Positions 39,005 through 64,000 of a DNA stretch of 64,000 nucleotides are shown here, in pieces. Made by a program: the position numbers and the translations under genes. Below the pieces are notes generated by a model, which made no database searches, was not told the DNA's origin, and saw only the letters and a list, made by a program, of their open reading frames with translations. The stretch covers positions 1,592,156-1,656,155 of the forward strand of contig NC_022084.1 of NCBI RefSeq assembly GCF_000246985.2, given 5' to 3'. Each line of letters begins with the position of its first letter. The stretch's first letter is position 1. The DNA comes from Thermococcus litoralis DSM 5473 (GTDB lineage Archaea; Methanobacteriota_B; Thermococci; Thermococcales; Thermococcaceae).

Positions 39005-39355
39005 GTTCATACCTCCTGTACTAGCATTGTGGAGTAACATGTCAAAATGTTAAAGGAATATTACCAATATAAATAATTTTCCAATTAAAGTTTTTCATAA
39101 ATTGTCGTATAATTTAAAAAGTATCAAAAAAGTTTTATTAAACTTTAACCTTTAATTGGGGTTTAAATCTTAAGCAATAAAAATAATAGGATAAAATAAT
39201 TAAGGCTTCAGGTTTTAACTTCTTGAACGATAACTTAGAAAGAGAACATAATATACTGAAAACTAATGTTAATTATCAGGATAACTTAAGCTTTAAGGTT
39301 CTTTTACTACAATCTGTTTGGCATTGAAATCTTGCTCTTTTATTATGAGATCAAC
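39005..39355. other. AT-rich non-coding interval
   Basis: No gene seen. It contains the binding-protein promoter (TTATTTATATTGG on the minus strand near 39069-39081), the 3' end of the Lrp gene's transcript and several A/T blocks. CTTTAACCTTTAA-type repeats near 39140-39155 are weak. Its AT richness exceeds that of the first half of the window. Confidence 0.35.
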
Positions 39356-39835
39356 CTAAAGTTCACTCAATGCATCCTTAAAAGGAACTTCGAGACCTTT
39401 CAGTGTCTTCACACCAAATAGGATTCTGTAGTCATGTATGCAACTTTCTCCTTGTATAACCTCTTCAACGCTCTTTCTAAGATCTGAGACATCTTCCCCA
39501 AACATCCCTATTAAGAGGTCATAGCCACCCCATATTTCATATACTTCAAATGTGTTTTCATTCTCCATGAGCTTTTTCTTAAAGGCTATAATTTGGTTCT
39601 TTGGAGTTTCAGGCTTCAGCTTGATAAGTACGAACGCATAGCTATATCCAAGTTTGTCAAATCTTAAATAAGCTGATATAAAGAGACATCCTTTCTTTTG
39701 TAAATTTATTCTTCTCCACCTAACGGCGGATTTTGAGAGGCCTATTCGTCTTCCAATTTCCGCATCACTCATTCTAGCGTTTTCTTTTAAAAGCCTTATA
39801 ATTTGCCAATCTGTTTTTGATAACCTTTTCTTCAT
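39356..39835 (-). CDS. Lrp/AsnC family transcriptional regulator
   Basis: 159 aa. N-terminal winged helix: LSKTDWQIIRLLKENARMSDAEIGRRIGLSKSAVRWRRINLQKKG (about 5-50). The C-terminal RAM ligand domain (about 65-150) has VYEIWGGYDLLIGMFGEDVSDL. It sits between the leftward dipeptide unit and the rightward racemase-DUF917 operon, so it is well placed to regulate either. It differs from the two other regulators in the island, which resemble each other more. Ligand unknown, probably an amino acid. Confidence 0.88.
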   Translation of the reverse strand: MKKRLSKTDWQIIRLLKENARMSDAEIGRRIGLSKSAVRWRRINLQKKGCLFISAYLRFDKLGYSYAFVLIKLKPETPKNQIIAFKKKLMENENTFEVYEIWGGYDLLIGMFGEDVSDLRKSVEEVIQGESCIHDYRILFGVKTLKGLEVPFKDALSEL

Positions 39836-40000: not shown

Positions 40001-40687
40001 ATGAAAAAATACACGATTGGACTAATTAGAGTGCTAACAATTCAAGATGAAGAACTCCTTAACCGTCACGGGAAAATTATTGAGAAAGCCTTCCCAGAGC
40101 TAAAAGTAATCAGCAGGTGCATTGAAAACCAACCTAAAGGGATATACGATGAAAAAACTGAGGAAGAAGCAAAACCAAAAATTTTGCGCTTGGTAAAAGA
40201 GTTTGAAAGTGATGGTGTTGATGCGATCATCATAAGTTGTGCAGCTGACCCTGCTGTTGAAGAAGCCAGAAAATTAGTTTCAATTCCAGTCATTGGGGCT
40301 GGATCTGCTGCTTCAGCATTGGCCTTGGCATATGGCAGAAAAATTGGGGTTCTTAACTTAACTGAAGAAACTCCAAGGGTAATAAAGGAAATTCTCGGTA
40401 AGAACTTAGTTGCAGAAGATCATCCTAATGAAGTCACCAATACCCTCGACTTAATGACAGACTGGGGAAGAGAAGAAGCAATACGAGCTGCAAAGAGATT
40501 AAAAGAAAAGGGTACTGAAGTAATAGTTCTTGGATGCACCGGAATGTCAACGATTATGATTGCTCCTATTCTTGAAGAAGAGGTTGGGATCTCAGTTATT
40601 GATCCGGTAATTGCTGCGGGAGCAGTGGCTTTACACTCCCTTAGAAGAGTGGAGGCATGGGGTGATCTTAATGAGAATAAGGGTTGA
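40001..40687 (+). CDS. Asp/Glu/hydantoin racemase family protein
   Basis: 228 aa. The fold uses two cysteines as acid/base pair; both are present: C80 in IIISCAADPAVEEAR and C179 in VIVLGCTGMSTI, with PVIGAGSAASALALAYG and an IDPVIAAGAVALHSL end. It looks most like the HyuE hydantoin racemase group, which racemises 5-substituted hydantoins. Substrate unproven. First gene of the rightward operon; its 3' end overlaps the DUF917 gene by 17 bases. Two relatives are at 61441 and 63245. Confidence 0.85.
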   Translation: MKKYTIGLIRVLTIQDEELLNRHGKIIEKAFPELKVISRCIENQPKGIYDEKTEEEAKPKILRLVKEFESDGVDAIIISCAADPAVEEARKLVSIPVIGAGSAASALALAYGRKIGVLNLTEETPRVIKEILGKNLVAEDHPNEVTNTLDLMTDWGREEAIRAAKRLKEKGTEVIVLGCTGMSTIMIAPILEEEVGISVIDPVIAAGAVALHSLRRVEAWGDLNENKG

Positions 40688-41747
40688 TGAAAAACTAGCT
40701 GAAGCGGCTGTTCTTGGTGGAGCTTTTTTTGGAGGTGGGGGAGGAGGCGATTTAAGATTGGGATTAAAGCATGCTAAACTCGCTATTGAGATGGGTGAAG
40801 TGGTAATAGTAGATGTGGATAGTATTCCTGAAGACAAATACATAGCTACAGCTTCTATGGTAGGAGCTCCTGCAGCAAAAGAGAGATATCTCCTCCCGGT
40901 TCACGCAATAAAATCTACAGAACTCTTTATGAACGTGGCCAGAGTTCCGCTCGGAGGCCTAATTTCCTCAGAAAATGGAGGTTATTCAACTATAAATGGC
41001 TGGATACAATCCGCAGTATTGGGGATTCCAATTGTAGATGCTCCAACAGATGGAAGGGCACATCCTGCGGCGGTTATGGGCTCTATGGGCTTGCATAAGC
41101 TTCCAAATTATCTCTCAATTCAAACTGCTGTTGGAGGAAACAAAGAGAAGGGAAAATACATCGAAGTTATTGTAAAAGGGTCTTTAGAAAGAGCAGCAAA
41201 GATGATCAGAGAAGCAGCAGTTCAGGCAGGAGGATTAGTTGCAGTAACGAGGAATCCTGTAGCTCCAGATTACGTAAAAGAGAATGCCGCAGTAGGGGCA
41301 ATTTCACAGGCAATAGAAGTTGGTAAAATAATGCAGGAGAATATCTCCAATCCCGAGCAAATGGTTGAAAGAATAGTACAATATCTTGGAGGCGGGGAAG
41401 TTATAGACAAGGGCGAAGTTAAGCAGGTAGCCTTGGAAACAAAAGGGGGCTTTGACATCGGAAGGATTATCGTGAAGGGAAGCACAGTCGAAAAATACGA
41501 AATAACCTTCTGGAATGAATTTATGACTCTCGAAGATGCCGAAGGAAGGAGATATGGAACTTTTCCAGACTTGATAGTTATGGTGGATCTCCAGACAGGA
41601 CTTCCCCTAACCTCTGCAGAGGTAAAACGAGGGGATAAAGTTCTCTTAGTTACAATACCCAAAGAACACATTATCTTGGGGACTGGAGTTAAGGACCCCG
41701 ATGTTTTGAAGCTGGTGGAACAAGTTATTGGAAAGAAGATTGTTTAA
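40671..41747 (+). CDS. DUF917 family protein (S-methyl-thiohydantoin desulfurase-like)
   Basis: 358 aa. Gly-rich N-terminus (LGGAFFGGGGGGDLRLGLKHA), then SMVGAPAAKE, SENGGYSTINGWIQSAVLGIPIVDAPTDGRAHPAA and a C-terminal domain with PDLIVMVDLQTGLPLTSAEVKRGDKVLLVTIPKEHIILGTGV. The family (DUF917) is linked in databases, as I recall, to S-methyl-thiohydantoin desulfurase, a hydantoin-ring enzyme. ATG 40671 follows GGTGATCTTA and overlaps the racemase. A paralog lies at 62123. A ring-directed activity on a cyclic amide is the best guess. Confidence 0.82.
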   Translation: MRIRVDEKLAEAAVLGGAFFGGGGGGDLRLGLKHAKLAIEMGEVVIVDVDSIPEDKYIATASMVGAPAAKERYLLPVHAIKSTELFMNVARVPLGGLISSENGGYSTINGWIQSAVLGIPIVDAPTDGRAHPAAVMGSMGLHKLPNYLSIQTAVGGNKEKGKYIEVIVKGSLERAAKMIREAAVQAGGLVAVTRNPVAPDYVKENAAVGAISQAIEVGKIMQENISNPEQMVERIVQYLGGGEVIDKGEVKQVALETKGGFDIGRIIVKGSTVEKYEITFWNEFMTLEDAEGRRYGTFPDLIVMVDLQTGLPLTSAEVKRGDKVLLVTIPKEHIILGTGVKDPDVLKLVEQVIGKKIV

Positions 41748-41758
41748 AGGTGATTAGG

Positions 41759-42694
41759 ATGCTAAAGCAAGTGATAGAGGCTTACGAACTGCTGGACAGT
41801 GCATATGTGGATGGAGAGAAAGTTGCCCAAATTCTAAAGGAAAGAGGTCTCGATAGAGTTGAAGTTCGCAGGATAGAAGGAGAAAAAGGTTATACAGACT
41901 TCATTAAAATAATAGTGCCTGGAAAAAATGGAAAGCTTTCTGGTGGCAACGCTCCAACACTTGGAATAATCGGCAGGCTTGGGGGAATTGGGGCAAGGCC
42001 TGAAATGATTGGCTTAGTTTCAGACGCAGATGGTGCAATAACTGCAATAGCCGTTGCCCTAAAGCTTGCAGACATGATAAAAAATGGGGATATGCTAGAT
42101 GGGGATGTTATAATTGCCACCCATATATGCCCAAATGCACCAACCCAGCCCCACGACCCCGTTCCCTTCATGGGCTCCCCTGTTGACATGGCAACAATGA
42201 ACAAGTACGAAGTTGACCCAATGATGGATGCAATTCTCTCAGTGGACACTACAAGAGGGAACAGGATAATAAACGTTAAGGGGTTCGCAATAACCCCAAC
42301 AGTAAAAGAGGGATGGATACTAAAAGTAAGTGATGATTTGTTGGATATAATGCAGTATGTAACTGGAAAAATGCCTGCGGTTGTTCCTATAACTATGCAA
42401 GATATAACCCCATATGGAAATGGTGTCCACCACATCAACAGCATTTTACAACCAGCAACAGCTACAAACGCGCCAGTAGTTGGTGTTGCCATAACAGCCG
42501 AGGTTCCAGTTCCCGGATGTGCAACGGGCGCAAGTCATGAAGTTGACATAGAACAAGCTGCAAGATTCTGTATTGAAGTTGCAAAAGGATTTGGTAAGGG
42601 TAAGGTGAGGTTCTACGATGAAGAAGAGTTCAAACACTTAGTTAAGCTCTATGGGCCAATGAATCACCTTCAGACACTAGGGAGGAGGAAGTAA
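41759..42694 (+). CDS. DUF1177 family protein
   Basis: About 311 aa. Matches DUF1177, a family of unknown function found with AroM and peptidases in several prokaryotes. Conserved blocks include TLGIIGRLGGIGARPEMIGLVSDADGAI, IATHICPNAPTQPHDPVPFMGSPVD, DTTRGNRI and PGCATGASHEVDIEQAARFCIEVAKGFGKG. The His- and Asp-rich motif around THICPNAPTQPHDP looks like a metal site. AGGTGATTAGG precedes ATG 41759; GTG 41750 is an unlikely start. Overlaps aroM by 1 base. Confidence 0.8.
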   Translation: MLKQVIEAYELLDSAYVDGEKVAQILKERGLDRVEVRRIEGEKGYTDFIKIIVPGKNGKLSGGNAPTLGIIGRLGGIGARPEMIGLVSDADGAITAIAVALKLADMIKNGDMLDGDVIIATHICPNAPTQPHDPVPFMGSPVDMATMNKYEVDPMMDAILSVDTTRGNRIINVKGFAITPTVKEGWILKVSDDLLDIMQYVTGKMPAVVPITMQDITPYGNGVHHINSILQPATATNAPVVGVAITAEVPVPGCATGASHEVDIEQAARFCIEVAKGFGKGKVRFYDEEEFKHLVKLYGPMNHLQTLGRRK

Positions 42695-43350
42695 TGAAAG
42701 TTGGGTTCATAACAATAGGACAATCACCTAGAGTAGATGTTGTTCCAGAGATAGAACCCTATCTAGGTGACATAGAGATTATTGAATGTGGAGCTTTGGA
42801 CGGATTAACATTAGAGGAGATCAAAGAATTGGCTCCAAAAGAGGGAGAATACGTTCTGGTAAGCAGACTTAGGGACGGCACTCAAGTAAGACTCAGCAGG
42901 GAAAAGATAGTTAAAAGACTTCAAGAGTGTATCAAGAAACTGGAAAAGGAGGTTGACATCATTGGGGTTCTCTGTACTGGAGAATTTCCGGAATTGACTT
43001 CAAAAAAACTGCTTGTTGAACCTTCTTTACTTCTTTTAAAAACAGTGGAATCGCTAGGAGTTTCAAAGCTTGGGGTTGTGGTTCCCGATCCAGATCAAAT
43101 AGAGATGACCAAAAGAAAGTGGAGCAATATTGCAGACACAATCAAAGTTCAAAGCGTTTCTCCTTACCTTGGAGAAAAAGATGAACTCATAAGAGCCGCA
43201 CAAGAGCTAAAAGATTGCGACCTTATTGTACTGGACTGCATTGGATATAATTTTAATGCCAAGAAACTCGTAAAAAAGATTACAAAAACACCCGTTGTTC
43301 TACCAAGAACCCTAATGGCTCGGGTTATTGGAGAACTTTTGGAGGAATGA
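42694..43350 (+). CDS. aroM: AroM family protein
   Basis: 218 aa. Starts MKVGFITIGQSPRVDVVPEIEPYL, the AroM hallmark, with ECGALDGLTLEEI. The family's function is unknown; the name comes from the E. coli aroLM locus. Two cysteines at 94 (VLCTGEFPE) and 182 (LDCIGYN) are spaced much like the C80/C179 pair of the racemase at 40001, suggesting a related two-cysteine fold (inference). It overlaps the M29 upstream reading frame and is closely coupled to DUF1177. Confidence 0.82.
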   Translation: MKVGFITIGQSPRVDVVPEIEPYLGDIEIIECGALDGLTLEEIKELAPKEGEYVLVSRLRDGTQVRLSREKIVKRLQECIKKLEKEVDIIGVLCTGEFPELTSKKLLVEPSLLLLKTVESLGVSKLGVVVPDPDQIEMTKRKWSNIADTIKVQSVSPYLGEKDELIRAAQELKDCDLIVLDCIGYNFNAKKLVKKITKTPVVLPRTLMARVIGELLEE

Positions 43351-43354
43351 GCTT

Positions 43355-44341
43355 ATGGCACTTTTTGATATTAATCCTGAGCTCTACAAGGCATGTGAAA
43401 TCGCATTAAAACAGTGTCTTGGAGTTCGAGAAGGCGAATCAGTAGTTGTAATTGCAGATGAACCAGAGCGCAAAATTGGATACCATCTCTGGATGAAAGC
43501 TAAGGAATTAAACGCGGAGGCAGTTTACATAGAAATTATCCCTAGGAAAATGCATGGAGAAGAACCACCAAAGCCTGTTGCCGAAGCTATGAAAGCAGCG
43601 AACGTTGTAATTGCTCCAACCTCAAAGTCAATAACTCATACACTAGCAAAAAAGGAAGCATGCGAAAAAGGAACAAGAGTGGCGACTCTACCTGGCATCA
43701 CCGAAGAGATTTTTATCAGAACAATGAGCGCTGATTATGAGGAGATACTAGAACTCACAAATAGAATAGCCGATATTTTGGATCATGGAAGAATTGTACG
43801 TATCACGACTAGCCTTGGTACAGATTTGGAGTTCTCAATAGAGGGTAGAAAAGCTAAAAGAAGCACAGGGATTTACAGGAACCCGGGTGAATGTGGGAAT
43901 CTCCCTGGAGCCGAAGCGTACATAGCTCCTGTAGAAGGAACGGCAAATGGTGTTGCAGTTATTGATGGCTCTATGGCTGGAATTGGAATTTTGAATAGTC
44001 CAATCAAGCTCACAATTCGTGAAGGTTTAGTTGAAAAAATTGAAGGAGGTGATGAAGCAAGAAAGCTGGAGGAAATTTTGTCAAAATACGGAAAGGAAGC
44101 AAGAAACATAGCAGAATTCGGAATAGGGACGAATCCCAATGCAAGAATAAGTGGGAATATTTTGGAAGATGAGAAAGTCTTTGGAACAGTACACATTGCA
44201 TTAGGAAGCAACTACGATTTTGGAGGACGTGTAAAAGCTCCCATCCATTTGGATGGGATTATTAAAACCCCAACAGTTTTGATTGATGGGAAATATTTGT
44301 TTAGAGATGGAGCGTTACAAGGTGGCAAAAATGAAGAGTAA
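43355..44341 (+). CDS. M29-like aminopeptidase (aminopeptidase T family)
   Basis: 328 aa, shorter than bacterial M29 enzymes (about 370-410), as in other archaeal members. The C-terminal block EFGIGTNPNARISGNILEDEKVFGTVHIALGSNYDFGG...HLDGI carries the Glu, His and Asp residues that bind metals in M29. The N-terminal half has CLGVREGESVVVIAD. ATG 43355 follows GGAGGAATGAG, and the end overlaps the M20 gene's 5' end by 11 bases. It would release N-terminal amino acids from imported peptides. Confidence 0.82.
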   Translation: MALFDINPELYKACEIALKQCLGVREGESVVVIADEPERKIGYHLWMKAKELNAEAVYIEIIPRKMHGEEPPKPVAEAMKAANVVIAPTSKSITHTLAKKEACEKGTRVATLPGITEEIFIRTMSADYEEILELTNRIADILDHGRIVRITTSLGTDLEFSIEGRKAKRSTGIYRNPGECGNLPGAEAYIAPVEGTANGVAVIDGSMAGIGILNSPIKLTIREGLVEKIEGGDEARKLEEILSKYGKEARNIAEFGIGTNPNARISGNILEDEKVFGTVHIALGSNYDFGGRVKAPIHLDGIIKTPTVLIDGKYLFRDGALQGGKNEE

Positions 44342-45725
44342 AATCAAAGAAGAAATAGTTTCCTTCTTGGAAAACAACAAAAAAAGATTTGTAGAGATAG
44401 CTCAGTACATTTGGGAGAATCCGGAACTCGCTTTTGAAGAATTTAAATCATCAAAAATACTCGCAGATACTCTAAAAGAATTTGGCTTTGAAGTTGAAAG
44501 AGGTATAGCCGACTTGCCAACAGCCTTTGTAGGCACATGGGGAGAGGGAAAACCGGTATTAGGTCTTTTAGCCGAGTATGATGCCCTACCAGGTTTGGCT
44601 GCTGATGGTTCTGGTAAACCAGGCCATGGCTGTGGGCACAATTTACTTGGAACTGCAAGCGTTGCTGCGGGGATAGCAGTCAAACGAGCAATGGAAAAAT
44701 ATGGATTAAAGGGTACAATAAAGGTCTTTGGATGCCCTGCCGAAGAAGTGGTGCTAGGAAAAGTTATAATGGCAGCAAGAGGGGTATTTAACGGTTTAGA
44801 CGCAGTAATTCAGTGGCACCCTTACTGGGAAAATGCAATCCGCTATGACAGTTCAAACGCCGCAGAGATAAAAGTTTACAGATTCTACGGGAAATCAGCT
44901 CACGCCGGAGGCACCCCTTGGGAAGGAAAAAGTGCTCTCGATGCCGCACTCTTGTTCTTAAATTCAATAGAGTTCCTGAGAGAGCACATTTGGGAGAAGG
45001 ATAGGATTCATTACATAATCACCAAAGGAGGTGATGCTCCAAATATAGTTCCAGACTTTGCCGAAGTCGCGGTTGGTATCAGATCATACGACATGAAACA
45101 CTTTGTAGAGCTATCAGAAAGAATTGACAAGTGCGCAATTGGATCAACTCTCAGCACTGGGACAAAAGTAGAGATATTTAGCAAAGGTGCCTGTTATCCC
45201 ATACTCCCCAACAAGGTGTTGTCTTCGGTAGTGTATGAAAATTTGAGGATTGTAGGTCCTCCGAAATTTACAAAAGACATTCTAAAAAGAGAAAAGCTCC
45301 ATACAAATATCAGTAAGTTTGAAGGTTGGGAAATAGGGGAAGAATGGAGAGGAATGACAGCGTCAACAGATGTTGGAGATGTTAGCTGGCTAGTCCCAAC
45401 TTCAGGCCAGCTTACAACAGCATGTGCTCCTATTGGGACTCCAACTCACAGTATAGAGTTTACCAAGTATTCCGGTAGGTCTGTGGGATATGAGGGCATG
45501 ATAACAGCAGCTAAGGTAATGGCGCTTTCGCTAGTAGATATCCTCCTGAACCCAGATGTTGTAGCTAGGGCATGGGAAGAATTCAAAATGAGAAAAAAAA
45601 GTTTAGAGTGGGAATACAAGCCACTACTACCGGCAAAAATAGAATCTCGGCTTGATTTAGAGATAAAAAGAGAAGAACTCAAAATAGAGAATCCTACGAG
45701 AATAAAAAACTTGTTTAATACCTAA
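44331..45725 (+). CDS. M20 family amidohydrolase (AbgB-like)
   Basis: About 464 aa. Metal ligands in LLAEYDALPGLA (75-92 area), GHGCGHNLLGTASVAAG and GCPAEEVVLGKV, then the lid domain with HAGGTPWEGKSALDAALLFLN. This resembles AbgB/aminobenzoyl-glutamate or amino-acid amidohydrolases in the M20D group. ATG 44331 follows AAGGTGG. It ends the first catabolic block; the ECF transporter genes follow 33 bases later. Confidence 0.85.
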   Translation: MKSKIKEEIVSFLENNKKRFVEIAQYIWENPELAFEEFKSSKILADTLKEFGFEVERGIADLPTAFVGTWGEGKPVLGLLAEYDALPGLAADGSGKPGHGCGHNLLGTASVAAGIAVKRAMEKYGLKGTIKVFGCPAEEVVLGKVIMAARGVFNGLDAVIQWHPYWENAIRYDSSNAAEIKVYRFYGKSAHAGGTPWEGKSALDAALLFLNSIEFLREHIWEKDRIHYIITKGGDAPNIVPDFAEVAVGIRSYDMKHFVELSERIDKCAIGSTLSTGTKVEIFSKGACYPILPNKVLSSVVYENLRIVGPPKFTKDILKREKLHTNISKFEGWEIGEEWRGMTASTDVGDVSWLVPTSGQLTTACAPIGTPTHSIEFTKYSGRSVGYEGMITAAKVMALSLVDILLNPDVVARAWEEFKMRKKSLEWEYKPLLPAKIESRLDLEIKREELKIENPTRIKNLFNT

Positions 45726-49166: not shown

Positions 49167-49290
49167 TTTTGCTTTGAACTTTTATTTTTTCTTCTTTTTT
49201 GTAGTTGAAATTGTAAATCTTATGATAGTAGGGATGTTTTAACAATGAGAGAGCATATAGAAATACCAAACTTCAAAAGTGGTGATAAGA

Positions 49291-49815
49291 ATGGAAGTAA
49301 TGAAAGCAGTTAAGGGTCGTAGGGCTGTGAGAAAGTTCAAAGACAAGAAGATTCCAAAAGAACACCTCCTTAAAATCCTTGAAGCAGGAATCTGGGCCCC
49401 AAGCGGAAGTAACATCCAACCTTGGGAATTCATACTAATAACTCAAGAACCAACAATAGAGAAGATAAAACTAATATCCCCAGGCCTCTTCGGAAACCCT
49501 ACAGCCTTAATAATATGCTGCATCAACAAAAAAAGAGCAGAAAAAGGAGGCAGAGCAGGAGAAAACACAGCACTAATGGATGTTTCGATGGCTGCTCAAA
49601 ACATGATGTTAATGGCTTACTCACTTGGAATAGGTTCCTGCCCAATAGTTTCATTTAACAAGATTGCACTAAAAGAACTTTTGAATATTCCCAAAGATGT
49701 GGAGCCGATACTTATGATAAGTTTCGGCTATCCCGAATTCTGGCCCAAACCGCCGAAAAGACGGCCGTTAAAGGAGGTGGTGTACGTTGAAGAGTACGGA
49801 AAGCATCTTGAATGA
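49291..49815 (+). CDS. Nitroreductase family FMN oxidoreductase
   Basis: About 174 aa. VKGRRAVRKFKDKKIPKEHLLKILEAGIWAPSGSNIQPWEFILI is the FMN-binding start. MDVSMAAQNMMLMAYSLGIGSCPIVSFN and LMISFGYPEFWPKPPKRRPLKEVV complete the fold. ATG 49291 follows GGTGATAAG. The natural substrate is unknown; it may reduce an activated double bond. It overlaps the DUF6092 gene by 29 bases, which is tight coupling. Confidence 0.85.
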   Translation: MEVMKAVKGRRAVRKFKDKKIPKEHLLKILEAGIWAPSGSNIQPWEFILITQEPTIEKIKLISPGLFGNPTALIICCINKKRAEKGGRAGENTALMDVSMAAQNMMLMAYSLGIGSCPIVSFNKIALKELLNIPKDVEPILMISFGYPEFWPKPPKRRPLKEVVYVEEYGKHLE

Positions 49816-50083
49816 TGATCACTTCAAACTTTTAGCCTTTTTAATAACAAGCGCTAGGGGCTGCGTTGGTGAACCTCCCTTGTACGGCCCGTTAAGATTG
49901 GTAGACGCTGCGGCAAGACTTGTTGAGATAATGAAGAAAGAAGGAAAAGCAATTCCCGAGATAATAGAACTGCAAAAGCTGATTGAAGAAAAGAAGGACT
50001 TGGTAATGTACGACGAGGAAGAGTTCATCAAATTTTTGGATGATCTTTCAAAAAAACTAGCAGAGATAATTAAAAAACAATAA
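49787..50083 (+). CDS. DUF6092 family protein
   Basis: 98 aa from TTG 49787, preceded by GGAGGTGGTG. The pattern HFKLLAFLITSARGCVGEPPLYGPLRLVDAAARLVEIM is the DUF6092 core, a small helical family of unknown function. It overlaps the nitroreductase gene by 29 bases, a link that suggests a shared task. The C-terminal third is Lys/Glu-rich helix. Confidence 0.72.
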   Translation: MKSTESILNDDHFKLLAFLITSARGCVGEPPLYGPLRLVDAAARLVEIMKKEGKAIPEIIELQKLIEEKKDLVMYDEEEFIKFLDDLSKKLAEIIKKQ

Positions 50084-50905: not shown

Positions 50906-51118
50906 ATGGAAAAAACAAAAGCATATACTTATGCAATATTGTTGGGAACAATACCCTGGATAGCATATGTCGTTATCTCGCCATTTTTCAACAAAGCAGA
51001 GCCACTGATCCTAGGAATGCCTCCACTGATGTTTTGGAACACCCTATGGTTGATATTGACATCTTTATGTCTATATGGGGCGTACAAATTTGAGCTAGGA
51101 GGTGGATTACTTGAGTAG
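50906..51118 (+). CDS. DUF3311 small membrane protein
   Basis: 70 aa with two helices (about 8-26 and 45-64) and PLILGMPPLMFWNTLWLILTSLCLYGAYK, the DUF3311 pattern. Such proteins commonly precede sodium/solute symporters and probably form part of the transporter. ATG 50906 follows AGGAGGTGC. It overlaps the symporter start by 8 bases. Confidence 0.78.
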   Translation: MEKTKAYTYAILLGTIPWIAYVVISPFFNKAEPLILGMPPLMFWNTLWLILTSLCLYGAYKFELGGGLLE

Positions 51119-53789: not shown

Positions 53790-54448
53790 AAAAAGTATTG
53801 ATAACAGGATTTGAACCATTTGGTGGGGATAGCAAAAACCCAACCGAACAAATTGCTAAATATTTTGACAGAAAACAAATCGGCAATGCAATGGTTTATG
53901 GAAGAGTTTTGCCAGTATCTGTAAAACGGGCCACTATTGAGCTAAAGAGATATTTAGAAGAAATAAAACCGGAAATAGTGATTAATTTAGGATTGGCCCC
54001 AACATATAGCAATATTACAGTAGAAAGAATAGCTGTAAACATCATTGATGCTCGAATCCCAGATAATGATGGGTATCAGCCTATAGATGAGAAAATTGAA
54101 GAAGACGCACCTCTTGCATATATGGCCACACTTCCAGTTAGAGCCATTACAAAGACACTCAGGGATAATGGTATTCCAGCTACAATTTCATATAGTGCCG
54201 GCACGTATCTTTGCAATTACGTGATGTTCAAGACATTACACTTCTCAAAAATTGAAGGATATCCACTTAAAGCAGGATTCATTCATGTCCCATACACTCC
54301 AGATCAGGTTGTTAATAAATTTTTCCTTTTAGGAAAAAATACCCCCAGTATGTGTCTAGAAGCTGAAATAAAGGCAATAGAACTGGCGGTGAAAGTTAGT
54401 CTAGACTATTTAGAGAAAGATAGAGATGATATAAAGATTCCATTATGA
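53786..54448 (+). CDS. pcp: Pyrrolidone-carboxylate (pyroglutamyl) peptidase
   Basis: 220 aa. Removes N-terminal pyroglutamate from peptides. The catalytic triad is E80 (SNITVERIAVNIIDARIPDN), C143 (SAGTYLCNYVMF) and H167 (AGFIHVPYTPDQV), and the start ITGFEPFGGDSKNPTE is the family signature. Cys/Glu/His spacing is normal, so it should be active. ATG 53786 overlaps the M20D stop by 4 bases. Presence of this enzyme in the island is the clearest tie to cyclic-amide (5-oxoproline) chemistry. Confidence 0.94.
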   Translation: MKKVLITGFEPFGGDSKNPTEQIAKYFDRKQIGNAMVYGRVLPVSVKRATIELKRYLEEIKPEIVINLGLAPTYSNITVERIAVNIIDARIPDNDGYQPIDEKIEEDAPLAYMATLPVRAITKTLRDNGIPATISYSAGTYLCNYVMFKTLHFSKIEGYPLKAGFIHVPYTPDQVVNKFFLLGKNTPSMCLEAEIKAIELAVKVSLDYLEKDRDDIKIPL

Positions 54449-54964: not shown

Positions 54965-55055
54965 AAAAGGAAAGAGCAGTATGAATGCATAATATTTTAA
55001 AATATTTCTATAGCAAAACAAATTCAATAACAAGAAAATATTTTGGGTGAACATT

Positions 55056-55604
55056 ATGGGAAAGAACAGAGAAAGAAGTATAAACTTGGATGAAGAGGAA
55101 ATAAAATTTTGGAAAGAGATCAGTGGGGGTAAACTTGATACTATTGACGTGAAAATCTATCTCGCATTAAGAGAAGACGGTAGATTATCAGATACTGACC
55201 TAGCAAATATTGTTGGGGTTTCAGTTCCAACTGCAAGGAGAAGACGTTTGGCATTACAGGAAAAAGGTCTCCAGATAATAGGGCTGTTGCTTTTTGAGGA
55301 GTTTGATATGGCGTCGGCTGATGTTATAATAAAATTTCAGAAAAACATCAAGAAAGAGAACATAACCCTTTTTATAAAAGAAGCGTGTGAAAATCCAAAA
55401 GTGTTCGAAGTGGATGAATATATTGGAGAATACGACTTGGTGATAAAGTTTTTTGACAAAAATTTCAAAGAACTCAAGCATACAATAGACTCGTTTTTGA
55501 CAAGTAGAGAGATAATAGAGAAATACATAATTCTTCCAGTTGTTGCGAGTCCAAAGTTATTCTCAAAGAAAATGACATATAAACACGGTAGTAAACAAAA
55601 ATAG
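55056..55604 (+). CDS. Lrp/AsnC family transcriptional regulator
   Basis: About 182 aa. Winged helix (LDTIDVKIYLALREDGRLSDTDLANIVGVSVPTARRRRLALQEKG, about 25-70) and RAM domain (VDEYIGEYDLVIKFFD). An acidic, basic N-terminal extension is similar to that of the regulator at 50105, its nearest relative here. ATG 55056 follows GGGTGAACATT; upstream GTG 55047 is weaker. It probably controls the dipeptide importer that follows, whose upstream region carries a palindrome at 55708-55725. Confidence 0.88.
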   Translation: MGKNRERSINLDEEEIKFWKEISGGKLDTIDVKIYLALREDGRLSDTDLANIVGVSVPTARRRRLALQEKGLQIIGLLLFEEFDMASADVIIKFQKNIKKENITLFIKEACENPKVFEVDEYIGEYDLVIKFFDKNFKELKHTIDSFLTSREIIEKYIILPVVASPKLFSKKMTYKHGSKQK

Positions 55605-55962: not shown

Positions 55963-57585
55963 ATGAAAAAAGTTGCTATTAGTATATTTTTAATGAGTCT
56001 GGTAATATTAGGAGTTATTGCCAGTGGATGTATTGGGGGAGAAACAACTTCCACTGTTCAATCCTCCAAAGAGACCCCATCCTCTACAGAAACTGAATCT
56101 CAAGTTTCCAACGTTGTGATATATGGCTACGAGTCTGAAATGATCACGTTAGATCCCAGTATTGAGTTTTCTAATTCAATAATAATGTTAGCTAACTTAT
56201 ACGAATGCCTTGTGAAGTATACTGATAAGGGATTAGAACCTTGGCTTGCAACTTCATGGGAACACAATGAAAATGGTACCGAGTGGGTATTTCACCTGAG
56301 GAAGGGAGTGAAATTCCATAGTGGTAATGAGATGACAGCAAAAGATGTAAAATGGAGCATAGAACGAACAATTAGAATGGGCATGGGCCCAGCTTTTATT
56401 TGGGATCCAATTGAGAGTATAGAGATCATAGATGATTATACAGTTAAATTCAAACTCAAGTATCCAGCGAATCTTCCTTTGATTGCTTCCTCTGCATATG
56501 GGGCATATATCATGGACAGTGCCTTTCTTTCAAAGATTGGAGACGATAAAGCTATCACAGAATATCTTAATCAAGGACATGATGCAGGAACAGGCCCATA
56601 TGCAATAGTGAAGTATGATCCAAAAACAGAGGTAGTTTTCAAAAAATTTGATGAGTATTGGGGTGGATGGGAAAAAGATCAGTTTGACACGGCGATAATA
56701 AAAATAGTCCCTGACCCAGCTCTTAGGGAACAGATGGTAACAAGTGGAGAAGTACATATAGCCAAAAACCTTCCACTTGATGATATACCTCAGCTACAAC
56801 AGAATCCAAATATAGTGCTACATGAAGAGCCTTCTTTCCGTGTTCTTTATGGAATGCTAAATACAAAAAAAGAACCATTGAACAATAAGCTCGTTAGAAA
56901 AGCTCTAAGTTATGCAGTCCCATACAAGGATATTGTAGACTACGTTCTTGGCGGTCATGGATACATAGCGAAGGGTCCAATTCCAAAGGGAATAATGGGA
57001 TACTTTGAAGATCTCCCAACTTATACTTATGATATTGAAAAAGCAAAACAGCTTCTTACTGAAGCAGGATATCCTAATGGAGGATTTAAATTACTCCTTA
57101 CATACACGCAAGGTGATGAAGCAGAAGGAAAAGTTGCTGAAGTTCTTAAGGCTGAGTGGCAGAAGCTTGGAATAGAGGTAGAAATCCGTCCAATGAACTG
57201 GGAACAGCAGTGGGCACTAGCTAGGAGCGATCCACAAAATGCTCAAGACATCCTCTTATTCTATTGGTGGCCCACATATCCCACACCATACGATTATCTC
57301 TTTAACATGTTCCATTGCGAAAATGAGACCCTGTTCAACTTGTGCTACTATTGTAACCCTGAATTCGACAACCTTATTGATCAAGCTGTAGTCTTAGAAG
57401 CTTCTAATCCGCAAAAAGCTGAACAGTTATACAAACAAGCAATAGAGCTCCTAATTGACGATGCTCCAGCGATTTTCTTCTATTCGCCAAACTATATCTA
57501 CGCCGTCCATAAAAGTATCAAAGGATTCAAAGCATATCCTGCATATCCGGAAGTAGTTTTCTTTTATGAACTAAGAAAGATATGA
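55963..57585 (+). CDS. Dipeptide/oligopeptide-binding lipoprotein
   Basis: 540 aa, SBP_bac_5 family. Signal peptide ends in a lipobox with C23 (VIASGCIGG), then a Ser/Thr linker (about 28-50) and SYGYE-like start; LRKGVKFHSGNEMTAKDVKWSIERT and GTGPYAIVKYDPKTEVVFKKFDEYWGG are the family signatures. It is intact, unlike the leftward homolog at 37189-39004, and anchors by lipid rather than CGP-CTERM. Starts a complete importer operon (55963-61439). Confidence 0.9.
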   Translation: MKKVAISIFLMSLVILGVIASGCIGGETTSTVQSSKETPSSTETESQVSNVVIYGYESEMITLDPSIEFSNSIIMLANLYECLVKYTDKGLEPWLATSWEHNENGTEWVFHLRKGVKFHSGNEMTAKDVKWSIERTIRMGMGPAFIWDPIESIEIIDDYTVKFKLKYPANLPLIASSAYGAYIMDSAFLSKIGDDKAITEYLNQGHDAGTGPYAIVKYDPKTEVVFKKFDEYWGGWEKDQFDTAIIKIVPDPALREQMVTSGEVHIAKNLPLDDIPQLQQNPNIVLHEEPSFRVLYGMLNTKKEPLNNKLVRKALSYAVPYKDIVDYVLGGHGYIAKGPIPKGIMGYFEDLPTYTYDIEKAKQLLTEAGYPNGGFKLLLTYTQGDEAEGKVAEVLKAEWQKLGIEVEIRPMNWEQQWALARSDPQNAQDILLFYWWPTYPTPYDYLFNMFHCENETLFNLCYYCNPEFDNLIDQAVVLEASNPQKAEQLYKQAIELLIDDAPAIFFYSPNYIYAVHKSIKGFKAYPAYPEVVFFYELRKI

Positions 57586-57629
57586 TTTGTCTTTCTTTTT
57601 CTATTTATTACAGAAAGGGGGCGAGTAAA

Positions 57630-58655
57630 GTGGCTAGGAAATTCGGAGAGTACATTGCATACAGAGTTGTATTGGCAATATTCGTTATTTTGGGAGTTAT
57701 CACAGTTGTGTTTTTTGTGTCAAGGATAATTCCCTCCGATCCAGCAGCTTTATGGGTTGGGGCTCACCCTACTAAAGAGGCTATTGAGAAAGCCAGGGAA
57801 GAATTGCATTTAAATGAACCAGTAATAAAACAATATTTTTATTATTTGTCCTCGCTTCTCCATGGGGATTTGGGAGTATCCATAAGGACTCATAATCCCG
57901 TCACACAAGACCTAAAATCAGCATTCACCGCTACTTTTGAATTAATACTTGTCTCTGAATTTATTGCAATAATAATTGGCATTATTTTGGGGGTCTACTC
58001 TGCAGTTAAAAAAGATTCTTGGTTGGACAATTTAAGTAGAATACTCGCAATAAGCGGTGTGTCTTTACCAACTTTCTGGTTTGGAATGATTTTGCAGCTG
58101 ATATTCTTTAAATACCTAGAAATTTTGCCCTTAGCAGGTAGGGTAGATAGTGTTGTCATCTTGGAGCATCCCCTAAGAACGATAACAGGATTCTATCTAT
58201 TAGACTCATTAATTACTGGCAACTTTGTGGTTTTTGTAGATGCACTAAAACATATTATTCTGCCAGCTATCACGCTTGCAATGTATCCAATTGGGCTTAT
58301 AACAAGGCAAGTTCGCTCAATGATGATAGAGGTCCTTCAAGAAAATTATATAAGAACCGCTTGGGCTTATGGAATCCCGCCCAAGAAGATTTATTTTAAA
58401 TATGCCTTAAAAAATGCCATAGCTCCCGCCTTAATAACTGTTGGTCTATCATTTGCGTACACTCTAATTGGAGCATTTTTAGTTGAGTTAATCTTCAATT
58501 GGCCAGGTCTTGGTAGGTATGCTGCATACTCTATCCTTAGTATGGATTATCCTGCAATCTTGGGGGTCACAATAATTGCAGCAATTGCATATGTCTTCAT
58601 TAACCTCATTGTTGATTTAATTCAAGTATATCTTGATCCGAGAATAGAATTGTGA
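57630..58655 (+). CDS. Dipeptide/oligopeptide ABC permease (DppB type)
   Basis: About 341 aa. GVITVVFFVSRIIPSDPAALWVGAHPTKEAIEKAREELHLNEPVIKQYFYYLSSLLHGDLGVSI is the DppB start. The EAA loop is YIRTAWAYGIPPKKIYFKYALKNAIAPALITVGL, and VDLIQVYLDPRIEL ends it. Start is GTG 57630 following AAAGGGGGCGAG; the frame is open upstream, overlapping the binding-protein gene. It lies 10 bases before the DppC gene. Confidence 0.9.
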   Translation: MARKFGEYIAYRVVLAIFVILGVITVVFFVSRIIPSDPAALWVGAHPTKEAIEKAREELHLNEPVIKQYFYYLSSLLHGDLGVSIRTHNPVTQDLKSAFTATFELILVSEFIAIIIGIILGVYSAVKKDSWLDNLSRILAISGVSLPTFWFGMILQLIFFKYLEILPLAGRVDSVVILEHPLRTITGFYLLDSLITGNFVVFVDALKHIILPAITLAMYPIGLITRQVRSMMIEVLQENYIRTAWAYGIPPKKIYFKYALKNAIAPALITVGLSFAYTLIGAFLVELIFNWPGLGRYAAYSILSMDYPAILGVTIIAAIAYVFINLIVDLIQVYLDPRIEL

Positions 58656-58665
58656 GGTGGGTTAA

Positions 58666-59519
58666 ATGCGAAAAGAAGAATACATAAGAATTCTGTTCAG
58701 GAATAAACTTTCTGTAATAGGTATGATGATAATATTGTTACTCGTTATAACTGCAATTTTTGCACCATTTTTAGCTCCTTATCCCGAGCAGGCTAAGGGA
58801 GAACCAAATCTTAAAGAAAGACTACAGCCTCCAAGTCTGAAACATCCTTTTGGAACAGACCACATGGGAAGGGACATTCTTAGTAGAGTAATTTATGGAG
58901 CTAGAACCTCTCTTATCATCGGGTTTTCAGTAGTCACTATCGCTGTTATTATAGGCCTTTTCTTAGGTCTAATAGCAGGATATCTTGGAGGGAAGTTTGA
59001 TATAGTGATTATGAGGATTACTGACGTATTTCTAGCATTTCCGCCTCTGCTTTTAGCGTTATTAATTGCAAGTACCTTAGGAAGAGGAATGTTAAATGCA
59101 ATTCTAGCTTTAGCTATAAGCTGGTGGCCATGGTATACACGACTAGCAAGAGGAATGGCAATTTCAGTGAAAAACAGACCATATGTAGAGGCTGCAAAAG
59201 CAATGGGAATAGCAGATTGGAAAATAATGCTAAGACATATTCTTCCAAATTCTATCTCCCCCTTAATTGTCCAAGCAACGATGGATATTGGCTCTGCCAT
59301 ATTGGAAGCAGCAGCCCTAAGTTTTCTTGGTCTGGGTGTTCAACCTCCAACACCAGACTGGGGCTAATGATTAGTGAAGGGAAAAATTACTTTCTAAATT
59401 ACTGGTGGTACCCAGTATTTCCAGGCCTTGCAATATTTGTTACAGTTATTGCGTTCAACTTAGTTGGAGACGCTGTGAGAGAGGTTATTGATCCAAGACT
59501 CAGGAGGAGGTTGCTATGA
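58666..59519 (+). pseudogene. Dipeptide ABC permease (DppC type), broken by one frameshift
   Basis: Frame 1 runs to TAA at 59365-59367: HPFGTDHMGRDILSRVIYGARTSLIIG, the EAA loop YVEAAKAMGIADWKIMLRHILPNSI and SFLGLGVQPPTPDWG. The family's next residues continue in another frame directly: LMISEGKNYFLNYWW...VEVIDPRLRRRL-type end, with stop at 59519. One extra G in the GGGG run at 59359-59362 would join the two. The joined protein has about 284 aa, the normal length. Since the following ATPase genes are intact, this may be a sequence error rather than decay. Confidence 0.85.
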
Positions 59520-60487
59520 AAAATCTCCTCGAGATAAGGGAGTTATATGTAAATTTCAGAACATTATGGGGAATCGCAAAGGTTCTAAATGGGGTAAACT
59601 TTACAATTAGAAAAGGAGAAATTTTTGGGCTCGTTGGAGAAACAGGTTGCGGAAAGAGTGTAACTGCCAGCACTATACTCAGGCTTTTACCCCCAAATTC
59701 GGAAGTTTCTGGCGAAGTATTATTTAAAGGAGAAAACCTTCTTGAAAAATCCGAGGAAGAAATGAGAAAAATTAGAGGAAGGGAAATTTCAATAATCTTC
59801 CAAGATCCAATGACATCTTTAAACCCTCTCTTTAAAATAAGAGATCAAATGCTCGATATAATCACTCTTCACAATAATCTCTCAAAAGAAGAGGCCGAGA
59901 AACATGCAAAGGAACTCCTAAAAAGTGTGGGACTTCCAGATCCAGAGAGAATTCTCAATTCTTACCCACATGAACTCAGCGGAGGGATGCGACAAAGAGT
60001 TATGATTGCAATGGCTTTATCTTCTAATCCTTCACTCCTTATAGCAGATGAACCAACAACAGCTCTTGATGTTACCATTCAGAAACAAATACTCGAATTA
60101 ATACTCGAGCTAAAGGATCAATACGAATTTTCAGTTCTGTTTATAACTCATGATCTGGGGGTTGTTGCAGAAATATGTGATCGGGTTGGTGTTATGTATG
60201 CAGGGAACATTGTTGAAATAGCAACAACTGAAGAGTTATTTGAAACCCCCTTACACCCATATACCCAAGGGCTACTTTCCGTAGTTCCAGATCCCAGATA
60301 CAGGAAAAAGCTCGAACCCCTCAAAGGAAGTGTACCAAGTTTGTTGAATCCACCTACTGGTTGTAGGTTTCATCCAAGATGTAACTATGCTAGTGAGATT
60401 TGCAAACAAAAAAAGCCTATACTATGTGAGTATTCTCCAAATCACTTTGTAGCCTGTCATCTCTATGGGGGGAATTCCGATGATTAG
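59516..60487 (+). CDS. Oligopeptide ABC transporter ATPase (OppD type)
   Basis: 323 aa. Walker [24 protein letters not shown], signature [15 protein letters not shown], Walker [16 protein letters not shown]-loop THDLG, and the OppD C-terminal [19 protein letters not shown], a Cys-rich element. ATG 59516 overlaps the DppC end by 4 bases. It drives the DppB/DppC pair before it and could also serve the leftward pair at 35243-37113, which has no ATPases. Confidence 0.92.
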
Positions 60488-61439
60488 AGTAGAACATTTA
60501 AAGAAATATTTCGCAATAAAACAAGGATTCTTACGAAAAAGGACTATGTGGCTAAAAGCAGTTGATGATGTTTCATTTGAAATAAAAAAAGGAGAAACAT
60601 TCGGATTAGTGGGAGAGAGTGGAAGTGGAAAATCTACACTAGGAAGAACGATCTTAAGACTTTATGAACCAACCTCTGGTAAGGTGTATTTTGGAGAAAC
60701 TGAGATAACAGCACTTCCAAAAGAGGAATTAAAAAAGATACGACCAAAGATGCAGATGATATACCAAGACCCTTATTCTTCTTTGAATCCTAGGCTGACG
60801 GTATTTGATATTATCGCAGAACCGCTAAAGGAGCATGGTTATGAGCATGTTAGGGATAGAATCTTAGAGCTATTAGAAGCGGTTGGACTAAGTGAAGAAC
60901 ATGCCAACAAGTATCCGGACGAACTTAGCGGAGGTCAGTGTCAAAGAGTTGCAATAGCTAGGGCTCTTGCATTAGATCCTGAATTTATAGTTCTAGATGA
61001 GCCAACTTCTGCATTAGACGTTTCTGTTCAAGCTCAAGTATTAAATCTCTTGGAAGATCTTAAAAAAGACCTTAGACTCACATATTTGTTTATTTCTCAC
61101 GACTTGGGAGTAGTTAGGTATCTGGCAGACAAAGTAGGAGTCATGTACCTCGGGAAAATAGTTGAGAGCGGAGATATTAATCAAGTTTTTGATCATCCAA
61201 AACACCCCTATACAAAAATGTTACTTGAGTCAATACCTATCCCTGATCCAAAAGTTCGTTCTATAAGAAGACATAAAATTGTCCGTGGAGAGATTCCAAG
61301 CCCATTAACCCCACCATCGGGTTGCAGATTCCACCCAAGATGTCCATATGCAAAAGATATTTGCAAGAAAGAGGAACCTGAAATGATCGAACTCGAAAGA
61401 GGCCATTTTGTTAGGTGCCATTTTGCGGAGGAGATGTGA
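60480..61439 (+). CDS. Oligopeptide ABC transporter ATPase (OppF type)
   Basis: About 319 aa. Walker A GESGSGKST, MIYQDPYSSLNPRLTV, signature LSGGQCQRVAIARAL, Walker B IVLDEPTSALDVS, SHDLG, and CRFHPRCPYAKDICKKEEPE at the end. ATG 60480 overlaps oppD by 8 bases. Second ATPase of the importer; the racemase gene begins 1 base after its stop. Confidence 0.92.
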   Translation: MIRVEHLKKYFAIKQGFLRKRTMWLKAVDDVSFEIKKGETFGLVGESGSGKSTLGRTILRLYEPTSGKVYFGETEITALPKEELKKIRPKMQMIYQDPYSSLNPRLTVFDIIAEPLKEHGYEHVRDRILELLEAVGLSEEHANKYPDELSGGQCQRVAIARALALDPEFIVLDEPTSALDVSVQAQVLNLLEDLKKDLRLTYLFISHDLGVVRYLADKVGVMYLGKIVESGDINQVFDHPKHPYTKMLLESIPIPDPKVRSIRRHKIVRGEIPSPLTPPSGCRFHPRCPYAKDICKKEEPEMIELERGHFVRCHFAEEM

Positions 61440-61440
61440 G

Positions 61441-62139
61441 ATGATATTAATTGTTGATCCTATAAAAGGAGGACTAGACAAAGCAACAAAAGAGTACATC
61501 TCTAAATATTTCCCAAATGATGAATTTTCAGTATTATCTCTAAAAGAGGGGCCAAAAACAATAGAAAGCTTTACTGACAAAACACTAGCGTGTTCTAGGC
61601 TTCTTGAAAATCTGGACATGCTAAAGAACGCTAACGCGATAGTAATAAACTGCTTTGCCGATCCTTGTCTCTTTGAGCTTAGGGAAAATCTAAACGTTCC
61701 GATTTTCGGGGTAGGAGAAACCACTATGCATATAGCGGCTATGCTCGGAGAGTTTTCAGTTATTGGTCCAGGAGATAACATGATTTCTTGGACTAGAATT
61801 CAAGCAAGGGAGTATGGAATATTTGATAAGCTAGTCTCGGTTCACAAAATTAAATTTTCAGTAGACGATATCTTAGAGGCTGATGAAAGGCTGTACAAGG
61901 CTACAAAGGATGCATGCCTCGAAGCAATAGACAAAGGTGCGGATGTTATTGTTTTGGGATGTACAGGCTTCATGACAATAGCCAAAAGGCTAAGAGAAGA
62001 AATATGGGAAGAGTTTCAAATTCCAGTTTTGGAACCATTGTTAGTTACTTATTCCGTTGCACGCTCTTTGTCTTTAGTTTTTAGGCATGGAAAAAGAGGG
62101 TTGTTTTCAGGGAGGGTTGAAGATGAAAGTATTGAATGA
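61441..62139 (+). CDS. Asp/Glu/hydantoin racemase family protein
   Basis: 232 aa. Two catalytic-type cysteines: C71 (IVINCFADPCLF) and C174 (VIVLGCTGFMTI), with PIFGVGETTMHIAAMLG. It is less like the protein at 40001 than the one at 63245. ATG 61441 is 1 base after the oppF stop and 5 bases after GGAGATG. Its 3' end overlaps the DUF917 gene by 17 bases, the same arrangement as at 40687/40671. Racemisation of a hydantoin or cyclic derivative is inferred. Confidence 0.82.
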   Translation: MILIVDPIKGGLDKATKEYISKYFPNDEFSVLSLKEGPKTIESFTDKTLACSRLLENLDMLKNANAIVINCFADPCLFELRENLNVPIFGVGETTMHIAAMLGEFSVIGPGDNMISWTRIQAREYGIFDKLVSVHKIKFSVDDILEADERLYKATKDACLEAIDKGADVIVLGCTGFMTIAKRLREEIWEEFQIPVLEPLLVTYSVARSLSLVFRHGKRGLFSGRVEDESIE

Positions 62140-63208
62140 AGTCGAACTTAGGGACATTGTAGAGGGTTGCACAGTTTTAGGAACCGGAGGCGGAGGAAAC
62201 CCTGAAGAAGGATGGGAAATGATAGAAAAGGCGTTAAAAGAAGGAAGAGAGTTCAAACTAGTAAAGCTTGAAGATATACATCCTGACGGTATCGTACCGA
62301 TGCCATATTTTGTGGGTTCAGTTTCTGGGAAAAAAGTTGAATCCGCATATCCGCATGGAGAGGCCGCACGTTCATATGAAGTTCTTGAGGAGTACATGGG
62401 TAAGAAATTCGAGGGTGTCATCTCAACTGAGCTTGGTGGAGCAAATACTGCTGCAGCCCTTGTAACAGCCGCTATGTTAGGGAGACCTATTGTTGATGGA
62501 GATCCCGCTGGAAGGTCAGTGCCGGAGTTACAACATACTACCTACTATATCCTTGGAATTCAAATGACGCCATTTTCTGTAGTTACACCTTTTGGAGATG
62601 AAATTATTATCCCTAAGGTAAAAGACGATGTACAAGCTGAAAAGATAGTGAGGGGCATTGTTGCCGCTACGGGAACCAACGTAGGAGTAACATCCCATCC
62701 CATCGATGGAAAGACACTCAAGAGTTCTGTAGTCCCAGATGCAATAACTTATGCTCTCAAATTAGGAAGAGCTCTAAGGACTGCAAGAGAGAATGGAGGA
62801 GATCCAATACAGTCACTTATAAAGACAGGAAACGGATTCTTGCTCTTTAAAGGAGTTGTAACAAGATCCACTTGGAGAGATGAAAGTGGATTTACAATTG
62901 GGGAATTCGAGCTTGAAGGTGTTGACGAATTCAAAGGCCAAGTTTACAAAGTCTTTTTCAAAAATGAGAACCTTATTTCATGGAAAAACGGAAAGGTGGA
63001 CGTAACAATCCCCGATTTAATCTCTGTATTAACACTAGATGGATATCCAGTTACTAACCCAAACGTAAAGGAAGGAAAAGAATACGCAGTCGTTGGGTTT
63101 CCAGCACCAGAAATATGGAGAACACCAAAAGGGCTTGAAATTTTCGGCCCAAAATATCTTGGTTTGGATATAGAGTACACACCAATTGAGAAGAAATATT
63201 CCAGGTAG
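62123..63208 (+). CDS. DUF917 family protein (S-methyl-thiohydantoin desulfurase-like)
   Basis: 361 aa. VEGCTVLGTGGGGNPEEGW is the DUF917 start, then VGSVSGKKVESAYPHGEAARSYEVLEEYMGKKFEGVISTELGGANTAAALVTAAMLGRPIVDGDPAGRSVPELQHTTYY and the C-terminal domain with PDLISVLTLDGYPVTNPNVKEGKEYAVVGFPAPEIWRTPKGLEIFGP. This is the longer subtype, different from the one at 40671. ATG 62123 follows GGAGGGTTGAAG. Shares the racemase-overlap arrangement and probably acts on a ring compound. Confidence 0.82.
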   Translation: MKVLNEVELRDIVEGCTVLGTGGGGNPEEGWEMIEKALKEGREFKLVKLEDIHPDGIVPMPYFVGSVSGKKVESAYPHGEAARSYEVLEEYMGKKFEGVISTELGGANTAAALVTAAMLGRPIVDGDPAGRSVPELQHTTYYILGIQMTPFSVVTPFGDEIIIPKVKDDVQAEKIVRGIVAATGTNVGVTSHPIDGKTLKSSVVPDAITYALKLGRALRTARENGGDPIQSLIKTGNGFLLFKGVVTRSTWRDESGFTIGEFELEGVDEFKGQVYKVFFKNENLISWKNGKVDVTIPDLISVLTLDGYPVTNPNVKEGKEYAVVGFPAPEIWRTPKGLEIFGPKYLGLDIEYTPIEKKYSR

Positions 63209-63244: not shown

Positions 63245-63922
63245 ATGAAAATTCTTGTAATAAACCCTGTTGGAACTTCGAGATGGGATGAAACAGACAA
63301 AAAAATATACCAGAGCTTTGCTTCTCTAGAGACAGAGATAGAGGTAATTAGTTTAGGGGAGGGCCCAATTTCAATCGAAACTAGAAAAACTGAAGCCGAT
63401 GCTATACCAAGAATCGTGGAAACAGCGCTAAAGAATCATGAGAGTTATGATGCTATAATAGTAAACTGCTGCGCAGATCCAGGAGTTGATATTATAAGGT
63501 CACTCCTTGACAAACCTGTCGTTGGCCCTTGCGAAGCGTCGTTAGCTCTAGCTTCTGTTCTTGGTAAGAAAATTGGAATTGTAACTGTTTCTAAGACGGG
63601 AATTCCAATATTCGAAGAGCTAGTAAAAAAACTAAACTTCGAGGAGTTCGTAGTATCGATACGAGCTATAGGCATTTCTGTGCCAGAAATTGAAAAAAAT
63701 TTGCAAAAAACAGTTAATCTGCTCTTAGAAGAGTGTAAAAAAGCAGAGAAAGACGGGGCGGAAGTAATAGTACTCGGGTGTACAGGGTTTGCAGGCTTAG
63801 CAGAAAGGCTTCAAAAACATATGGCTATACCTATTATTGACCCTGCTGGAGCTGCAGTAAAAATAGCGGAGAATTTGGTATCCCTTAAATTAAGCCATAG
63901 CAAAAAACGGTATTTTTCTTAA
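63245..63922 (+). CDS. Asp/Glu/hydantoin racemase family protein
   Basis: 225 aa. C75/C76 (IIVNCCADPGVD) and C179 (VIVLGCTGFAG) are the two reactive-cysteine sites, with VISLGEGPISIETRKTEADAIPRIVETALKN and VVGPCEASLALASVLGKKIGIVTVS. It is the third racemase-like protein of the island. ATG 63245 follows GGAGGTGAAAATT. A further gene starts 14 bases after its stop. Confidence 0.83.
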   Translation: MKILVINPVGTSRWDETDKKIYQSFASLETEIEVISLGEGPISIETRKTEADAIPRIVETALKNHESYDAIIVNCCADPGVDIIRSLLDKPVVGPCEASLALASVLGKKIGIVTVSKTGIPIFEELVKKLNFEEFVVSIRAIGISVPEIEKNLQKTVNLLLEECKKAEKDGAEVIVLGCTGFAGLAERLQKHMAIPIIDPAGAAVKIAENLVSLKLSHSKKRYFS

Positions 63923-63936: not shown

Positions 63937-64000
63937 ATGTTAGGCTATTTGTCAATTGAAGTCTTGGAAAGTGCTCATAAGTTGTTAAACAAAATAATGA
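63937..64000 (+). CDS. Start of an unidentified gene, cut by window edge
   Basis: An ATG preceded by AAAAGGGGGG begins an open frame reading MLGYLSIEVLESAHKLLNKIM and continuing past the edge. Only 21 codons are visible; family not recognised. It probably belongs to the racemase-DUF917 unit. Confidence 0.45.
   Translation, partial: MLGYLSIEVLESAHKLLNKIM

Follow-up and report, generated by a model that had tools for sequence, protein, structure and literature searches.

Two racemase-like genes in a 64-kb stretch of Thermococcus litoralis DNA (the window, part of a genome that is a single contig of 2,215,172 bases) each run into a following gene of the DUF917 family, and both junctions overlap by the same 17 bases. 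An earlier note on this DNA took the equal overlap, in copies of different subtypes, as an argument that the two proteins act together, possibly as a complex. Does the overlap carry this message, and what are the two pairs part of?

The basic observations are sound. Both 17-base overlaps lie where they had been placed (see the table), and the copies are indeed diverged. All three racemases match PF01177 and both DUF917 proteins match PF06032 and PF20906; identity is 27% between the DUF917 proteins, which fall in two well-separated clades (types A and B), and 28% between the upstream racemases. The second copy does have an extra racemase. Each pair is embedded in a longer operon. Operon A (copy 1) runs from the racemase through type-A DUF917, DUF1177, AroM and an M29-like hydrolase to an M20 amidohydrolase, and an Lrp/AsnC-type regulator is oriented divergently from it. 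Operon B (copy 2), about 21 kb away, consists of an Lrp/AsnC-type regulator, a dipeptide/oligopeptide ABC importer, a racemase, type-B DUF917, another racemase and an M29-like gene. Two importer genes appear to have frame breaks: the second permease of operon B (58666-59519, + strand) is left with a 233-aa ORF as compared to 284-288 aa in Thermococcales orthologs, by real loss or sequence error, and a solute-binding protein beside operon A (37189-39040, - strand) is apparently divided between two ORFs that do not share a frame. Import here may be impaired unless these are sequence errors.

Table. Features of the two operons and of the region between them (SD, Shine-Dalgarno-like site; M29-like, M20, M17 and M28 are peptidase families)
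Feature	Coordinates	Strand	Evidence
Lrp/AsnC-type regulator, divergent from operon A	39356..39835	-	PF13404 1e-11; retained beside orthologous operons
Asp/Glu/hydantoin racemase-family protein (P0001)	40001..40687	+	PF01177 2.3e-31; 2EQ5 8.8e-112; invariant C80, C179
Copy 1 overlap, 17 bases	40671..40687	+	SD GGTGATC within racemase frame
DUF917 type A (P0002), thiohydantoin desulfurase kin	40671..41747	+	PF06032/PF20906; NF058529 303 bits (cut-off 440), NF058532 273 bits (cut-off 450); tree
DUF1177, predicted zinc-aminopeptidase-like fold	41759..42694	+	PF06675 1.3e-143; AF2 pLDDT 76; Foldseek M17/M28/M20 matches E 2e-9, TM ~0.5
AroM family (racemase superfamily, two Cys)	42694..43350	+	PF07302 1.9e-80
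M29-like hydrolase	43355..44341	+	PF02073 1.4e-13
M20 amidohydrolase/peptidase	44331..45725	+	TIGR01891 1.7e-70
Cyclodipeptide-oxidase-like subunit A (nitroreductase fold)	49279..49815	+	PF00881 4.1e-35; best PDB match 8UC3 albonoursin synthase 3.7e-27
Cyclodipeptide-oxidase subunit B family	49805..50083	+	PF19585 3.7e-29; sole copy in genome
Lrp/AsnC-type regulator ahead of operon B	55047..55604	+	PF13404 1.1e-9
Dipeptide/oligopeptide ABC importer (binding protein, two permeases, two ATPases)	55963..61439	+	named from sequence; collinear in relatives
Racemase-family protein, upstream (P0003)	61441..62139	+	PF01177 9.6e-33
Copy 2 overlap, 17 bases	62123..62139	+	SD GGAGG within racemase frame
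DUF917 type B (P0004)	62123..63208	+	PF06032 2.5e-45 / PF20906 3.9e-60; tree
Second racemase-family protein (P0005)	63245..63922	+	PF01177 2.2e-45
M29-like gene, start only, continues beyond window (L053:10093-11136)	63937..64000	+	M29-like profile match; without Pfam match of its own

Both DUF917 genes start with ATG, and their Shine-Dalgarno-like sites lie upstream, inside the racemase gene; start codons are inferred, and junctions in orthologs were scored from the best Shine-Dalgarno-supported starts. The baseline is given by the same-strand neighbour pairs of the window, 17 of which, out of 52, overlap, by 4 (seven pairs), 8 (three), 11 (two), 17 (two), 1, 23 and 44 bases, with 4, 8 and 11 dominating. 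The racemase/DUF917 overlap as such is ordinary for the window. Among Thermococcales orthologs, the type-A junction measures 17, 17, 14, 11, 11, 4, 4 and -5 bases, and the type-B junction 17, 17, -4 (four times) and -14 (three times); the two genes are about 1.6 kb apart in several Bacillota. Since spacing differs among orthologous junctions, the equal length of the two in the window is a coincidence, and the exact overlap is ruled out as a conserved signal. Only one other genome, G008, shows 17 bases at both junctions; its two operons lie within about 13 kb of DNA and are syntenic with the window at 72-76% DNA identity, so that the shared 17/17 state is explained by descent or transfer. Close spacing or overlap is common in the operon and is compatible with translational coupling. 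No racemase-DUF917 fusion is found among 121 DUF917 genes, as judged by protein length (268-438 aa).

We searched for DUF917 genes with PF06032 in Thermococcaceae, Synergistota, Bacillota and other groups (the chosen phyla are a sample of prokaryotes), read the neighbourhoods in 112 loci, and collapsed the genes at 75% identity, which left 33 clusters of type A and 42 of type B. A gene counted as a neighbour if it lay on the same strand and no more than 6 kb away, racemase and AroM were told apart by best profile, and the labels OPT, HyuA, NCS1 and PucR were given by eye after inspection of representative sequences, with no profile search. Type-A genes have DUF1177 nearby in 26 clusters (25 adjacent), AroM in 27, racemase in 22 (18 adjacent), an M29-like gene in 19 and, by eye, OPT in 22; linkage to DUF1177 and AroM is at least as strong as linkage to the racemase. 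Type-B genes have a racemase nearby in 10 clusters (5 adjacent) and, again by eye, HyuA-type genes in 18 and an NCS1-type permease in 14. Operon A is a widespread operon of racemase, DUF917, DUF1177, AroM and M29-like hydrolase, often with an OPT transporter, and its racemase linkage spans Thermococcales, Synergistota and Bacillota. All eight Thermococcaceae genomes with type-A DUF917 have an ortholog of P0001. In a ninth with the racemase, G078, DUF917 is reduced to its first part: an operon A remnant (L231 8243-9681) keeps the regulator and an intact racemase (86% identical), and DUF917 aligns over the first ~130 bases only. The linkage survey proposed in the earlier note thus gives a divided answer. 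Type A is mostly linked, which fits the claim that the two proteins act together, in the sense of one pathway; type B is mostly unlinked, however, and one-to-one linkage is not conserved.

In the DUF917 tree, a single fully supported branch separates types A and B. The racemases associated with them split correspondingly, with moderate support, and the nearer relative of P0003 is P0005, not P0001. Type-A operons of archaea and bacteria are intermixed in both trees, where a Synergistota sample (L170) and bacterium GBS-1 (L071) sit inside the Thermococcales group with starred support, which suggests that operon A may have crossed between the two domains as a cassette. Two catalytic cysteines are invariant in the racemases and in AroM. 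P0001 and P0003 score higher against hydantoin-type racemase structures than against aspartate/glutamate racemases, although the annotations of these structures are putative. The only match in a fold search with DUF917 is 2O3I, itself uncharacterised, and no mechanism follows from structure.

A hint of DUF917 chemistry comes from desulfurases. P0002 is similar to the profiles of thiohydantoin (NF058529, 2.6e-90) and S-methyl-thiohydantoin (NF058532, 3.7e-81) desulfurases, P0004 reaches 79.5 and 72.5 bits, respectively, and both proteins miss the equivalog cut-offs; that of NF058529 is passed in none of 50 genomes having related genes. Reference desulfurases from Agrobacterium and a Thalassospira plasmid pass the cut-offs, and stand beside urocanate-hydratase-type genes without a racemase. 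In the tree, desulfurases passing these cut-offs nest inside the type-A clade, and the AU test rejects operon-A DUF917 proteins as a clade without them, the Agrobacterium row being long-branched. This placement suggests hydantoin-type ring chemistry for type A, P0002 itself scoring under both cut-offs. Our literature search returned no paper containing the phrase thiohydantoin desulfurase.

For DUF1177, which has homologs at L054-L079, a structural model built from 12 sequences, of moderate confidence by its pLDDT, is predicted to resemble zinc aminopeptidases of the M17, M28 and M20 families. A literature search for a functional study of this family found none.

Between operons A and B lies a cyclodipeptide-oxidase (CDO)-like gene pair, which in G008 comes immediately after the M29-like gene of operon B. 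It is near only a minority of the surveyed DUF917 clusters; A/B pairs near DUF917 genes, some with HyuA-type genes, are seen at L201, L206, L219 and L192, in Thermoplasmata and Bacillota. The cyclodipeptide synthase profile PF16715 has no match in the genome, nor in the control genomes. The region also holds further genes of peptide catabolism: at 52620-54448 (+ strand) a gene for a carboxypeptidase of CpsA-type M20 overlaps one for a pyroglutamyl-peptidase, and a sodium:solute symporter is encoded beside them (51102-52562).

We think it rather probable, at about 60%, that each pair is a segment of a larger catabolic operon, the two operons being different but related and handling cyclic or D-configured peptide derivatives, with the racemase and DUF917 working on successive intermediates. 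The gene content, its conservation and the separation of two DUF917 clades are directly observed. The catabolic reading draws on the recurrence of the operon A gene set across phyla, the invariant cysteines, the desulfurases nested in type A, the DUF1177 model, the CDO-like pair, the gene set of published clusters (see below) and the variable junction spacing. An importer (ABC here, often OPT in relatives) would take up small peptide-derived compounds, either cyclic (hydantoin-, imidazolone- or diketopiperazine-like) or D-configured, and the CDO-like enzyme may dehydrogenate them. Hydrolysis of the ring, at a hydantoin-type carbon, could then fall to DUF917, the two-cysteine racemases, AroM included, would interconvert stereoisomers so that both forms are processed, and the DUF1177, M29-like and M20 hydrolases would release amino acids. 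Overlap of the genes would serve translational coupling and balanced expression, and is not evidence for a complex.

What would a complex predict? If racemase and DUF917 formed a stable, functionally obligate assembly, with the overlap reflecting co-translational assembly, one would point to their adjacency in more than half of the type-A clusters, to the overlap or near-overlap in Thermococcales with a Shine-Dalgarno site inside the racemase, and to the overlapping genes of CDO enzymes, which do encode a true complex (PMC11055893). Yet junction spacing is not conserved, an insert of about 1.6 kb separates the genes in some Bacillota, 11 of the 33 clusters of type A and 32 of the 42 of type B have no racemase nearby, G078 has the racemase alone, the desulfurase kin do without one, and the structure entries of the relatives 2EQ5 and 2O3I list single molecules. 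The step from identical overlap to complex thus finds no support, two junctions of equal overlap length do not show a protein complex, and we regard an obligate one as improbable; judging from these gene arrangements, the two proteins most likely share a pathway instead. It is scarcely credible that both pairs descend by duplication from one ancestral racemase-DUF917 unit whose 17-base junction persisted while the copies diverged. The corresponding A/B split of racemases and DUF917 proteins would fit, but junctions vary inside each ortholog set, type-B genes mostly lack a racemase, P0003 is closer to P0005, and the synteny of G008 at both operons indicates common inheritance of its two junctions; the trees and the DUF917 genes without a racemase disfavour such a unit.

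Two further alternatives concern chemistry. Degradation of ergothioneine or a thiohydantoin by operon A, with P0002 a true thiohydantoin desulfurase, would agree with its strong profile matches and with the nesting of true desulfurases in type A, but is very unlikely: the scores of P0002 stay under both cut-offs, that of NF058529 is reached in none of the 50 genomes with related genes, and the thiourocanate (urocanate-type) hydratase and carbamoylase genes found beside the Agrobacterium reference are missing from the genes identified in operon A. We rejected the ergothioneine pathway for operon A on these scores and partner genes. Somewhat unlikely, though a more serious competitor, is the view that the racemases are of the ordinary Asp/Glu type and convert D-amino acids released by the operon peptidases, with DUF917 catalysing a separate step and no intermediate in common. 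PF01177 covers racemases of amino acids as well as of hydantoins, there is similarity to aspartate racemase 1JFL, and both operons have peptidase-like genes; against this, P0001 and P0003 favour the hydantoin-type structures, putative as their annotations are.

Returning to the two related catabolic operons, a bolder version, which we hold tentatively and at somewhat less than even odds, is that racemase, type-A DUF917, DUF1177, AroM and M29-like hydrolase make up an uncharacterised pathway, exchanged as a cassette between archaea and bacteria, for opening and dismantling a cyclic peptide-derived metabolite, that the thiohydantoin desulfurases of ergothioneine breakdown evolved from within its DUF917 family, and that DUF1177 represents a new family akin to zinc peptidases. 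The shared, conserved operon, in which racemases, peptidases and peptide transporters also occur, together with the branching of the desulfurases from inside type A, restricts the chemistry to cyclic derivatives of amino acids, and offers concrete enzymes for assay that, coming from a thermophile, are probably stable.

The association of racemase and DUF917 is already known. CDO clusters without a cyclodipeptide synthase (CDPS) are enriched for hydantoin racemases (PF01177), DUF917 (PF06032), AroM (PF07302), dipeptide ABC and OPT transporters and peptidases, Thermococcus is named among them, and the DUF917 and AroM proteins are called experimentally uncharacterised (Nat Commun 2024, PMC11055893). 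The window likewise has a CDOA (PF00881, closest to AlbA) and CDOB (PF19585) pair together with PF01177, PF06032, PF07302, a dipeptide ABC importer and peptidases. Its CDO pair, however, lies between two operons and not inside one (the corresponding pair of G008 is joined to operon B), and DUF1177 goes unmentioned in the cluster section of that paper. Thiohydantoin and S-methyl-thiohydantoin desulfurases share the type-A clade with P0002 at 33-35% identity, but at their loci urocanate-hydratase-type genes are present, whereas racemase, DUF1177 and AroM are absent. In Bacillota loci that combine a HyuA-type hydantoinase/oxoprolinase, DUF917 and an NCS1 permease, type-B DUF917 is common with the window, and the HyuA-like and NCS1-like genes, named by eye from sequence, replace the racemase and M29-like genes. 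The solved structure 2EQ5, "228aa long hypothetical hydantoin racemase", is an ortholog-level match of P0001 and its own function is hypothetical. To these known systems our analysis adds the overlap, the split into two clades, the core membership and fold prediction of DUF1177, and the position of the desulfurases within the clade of copy 1.
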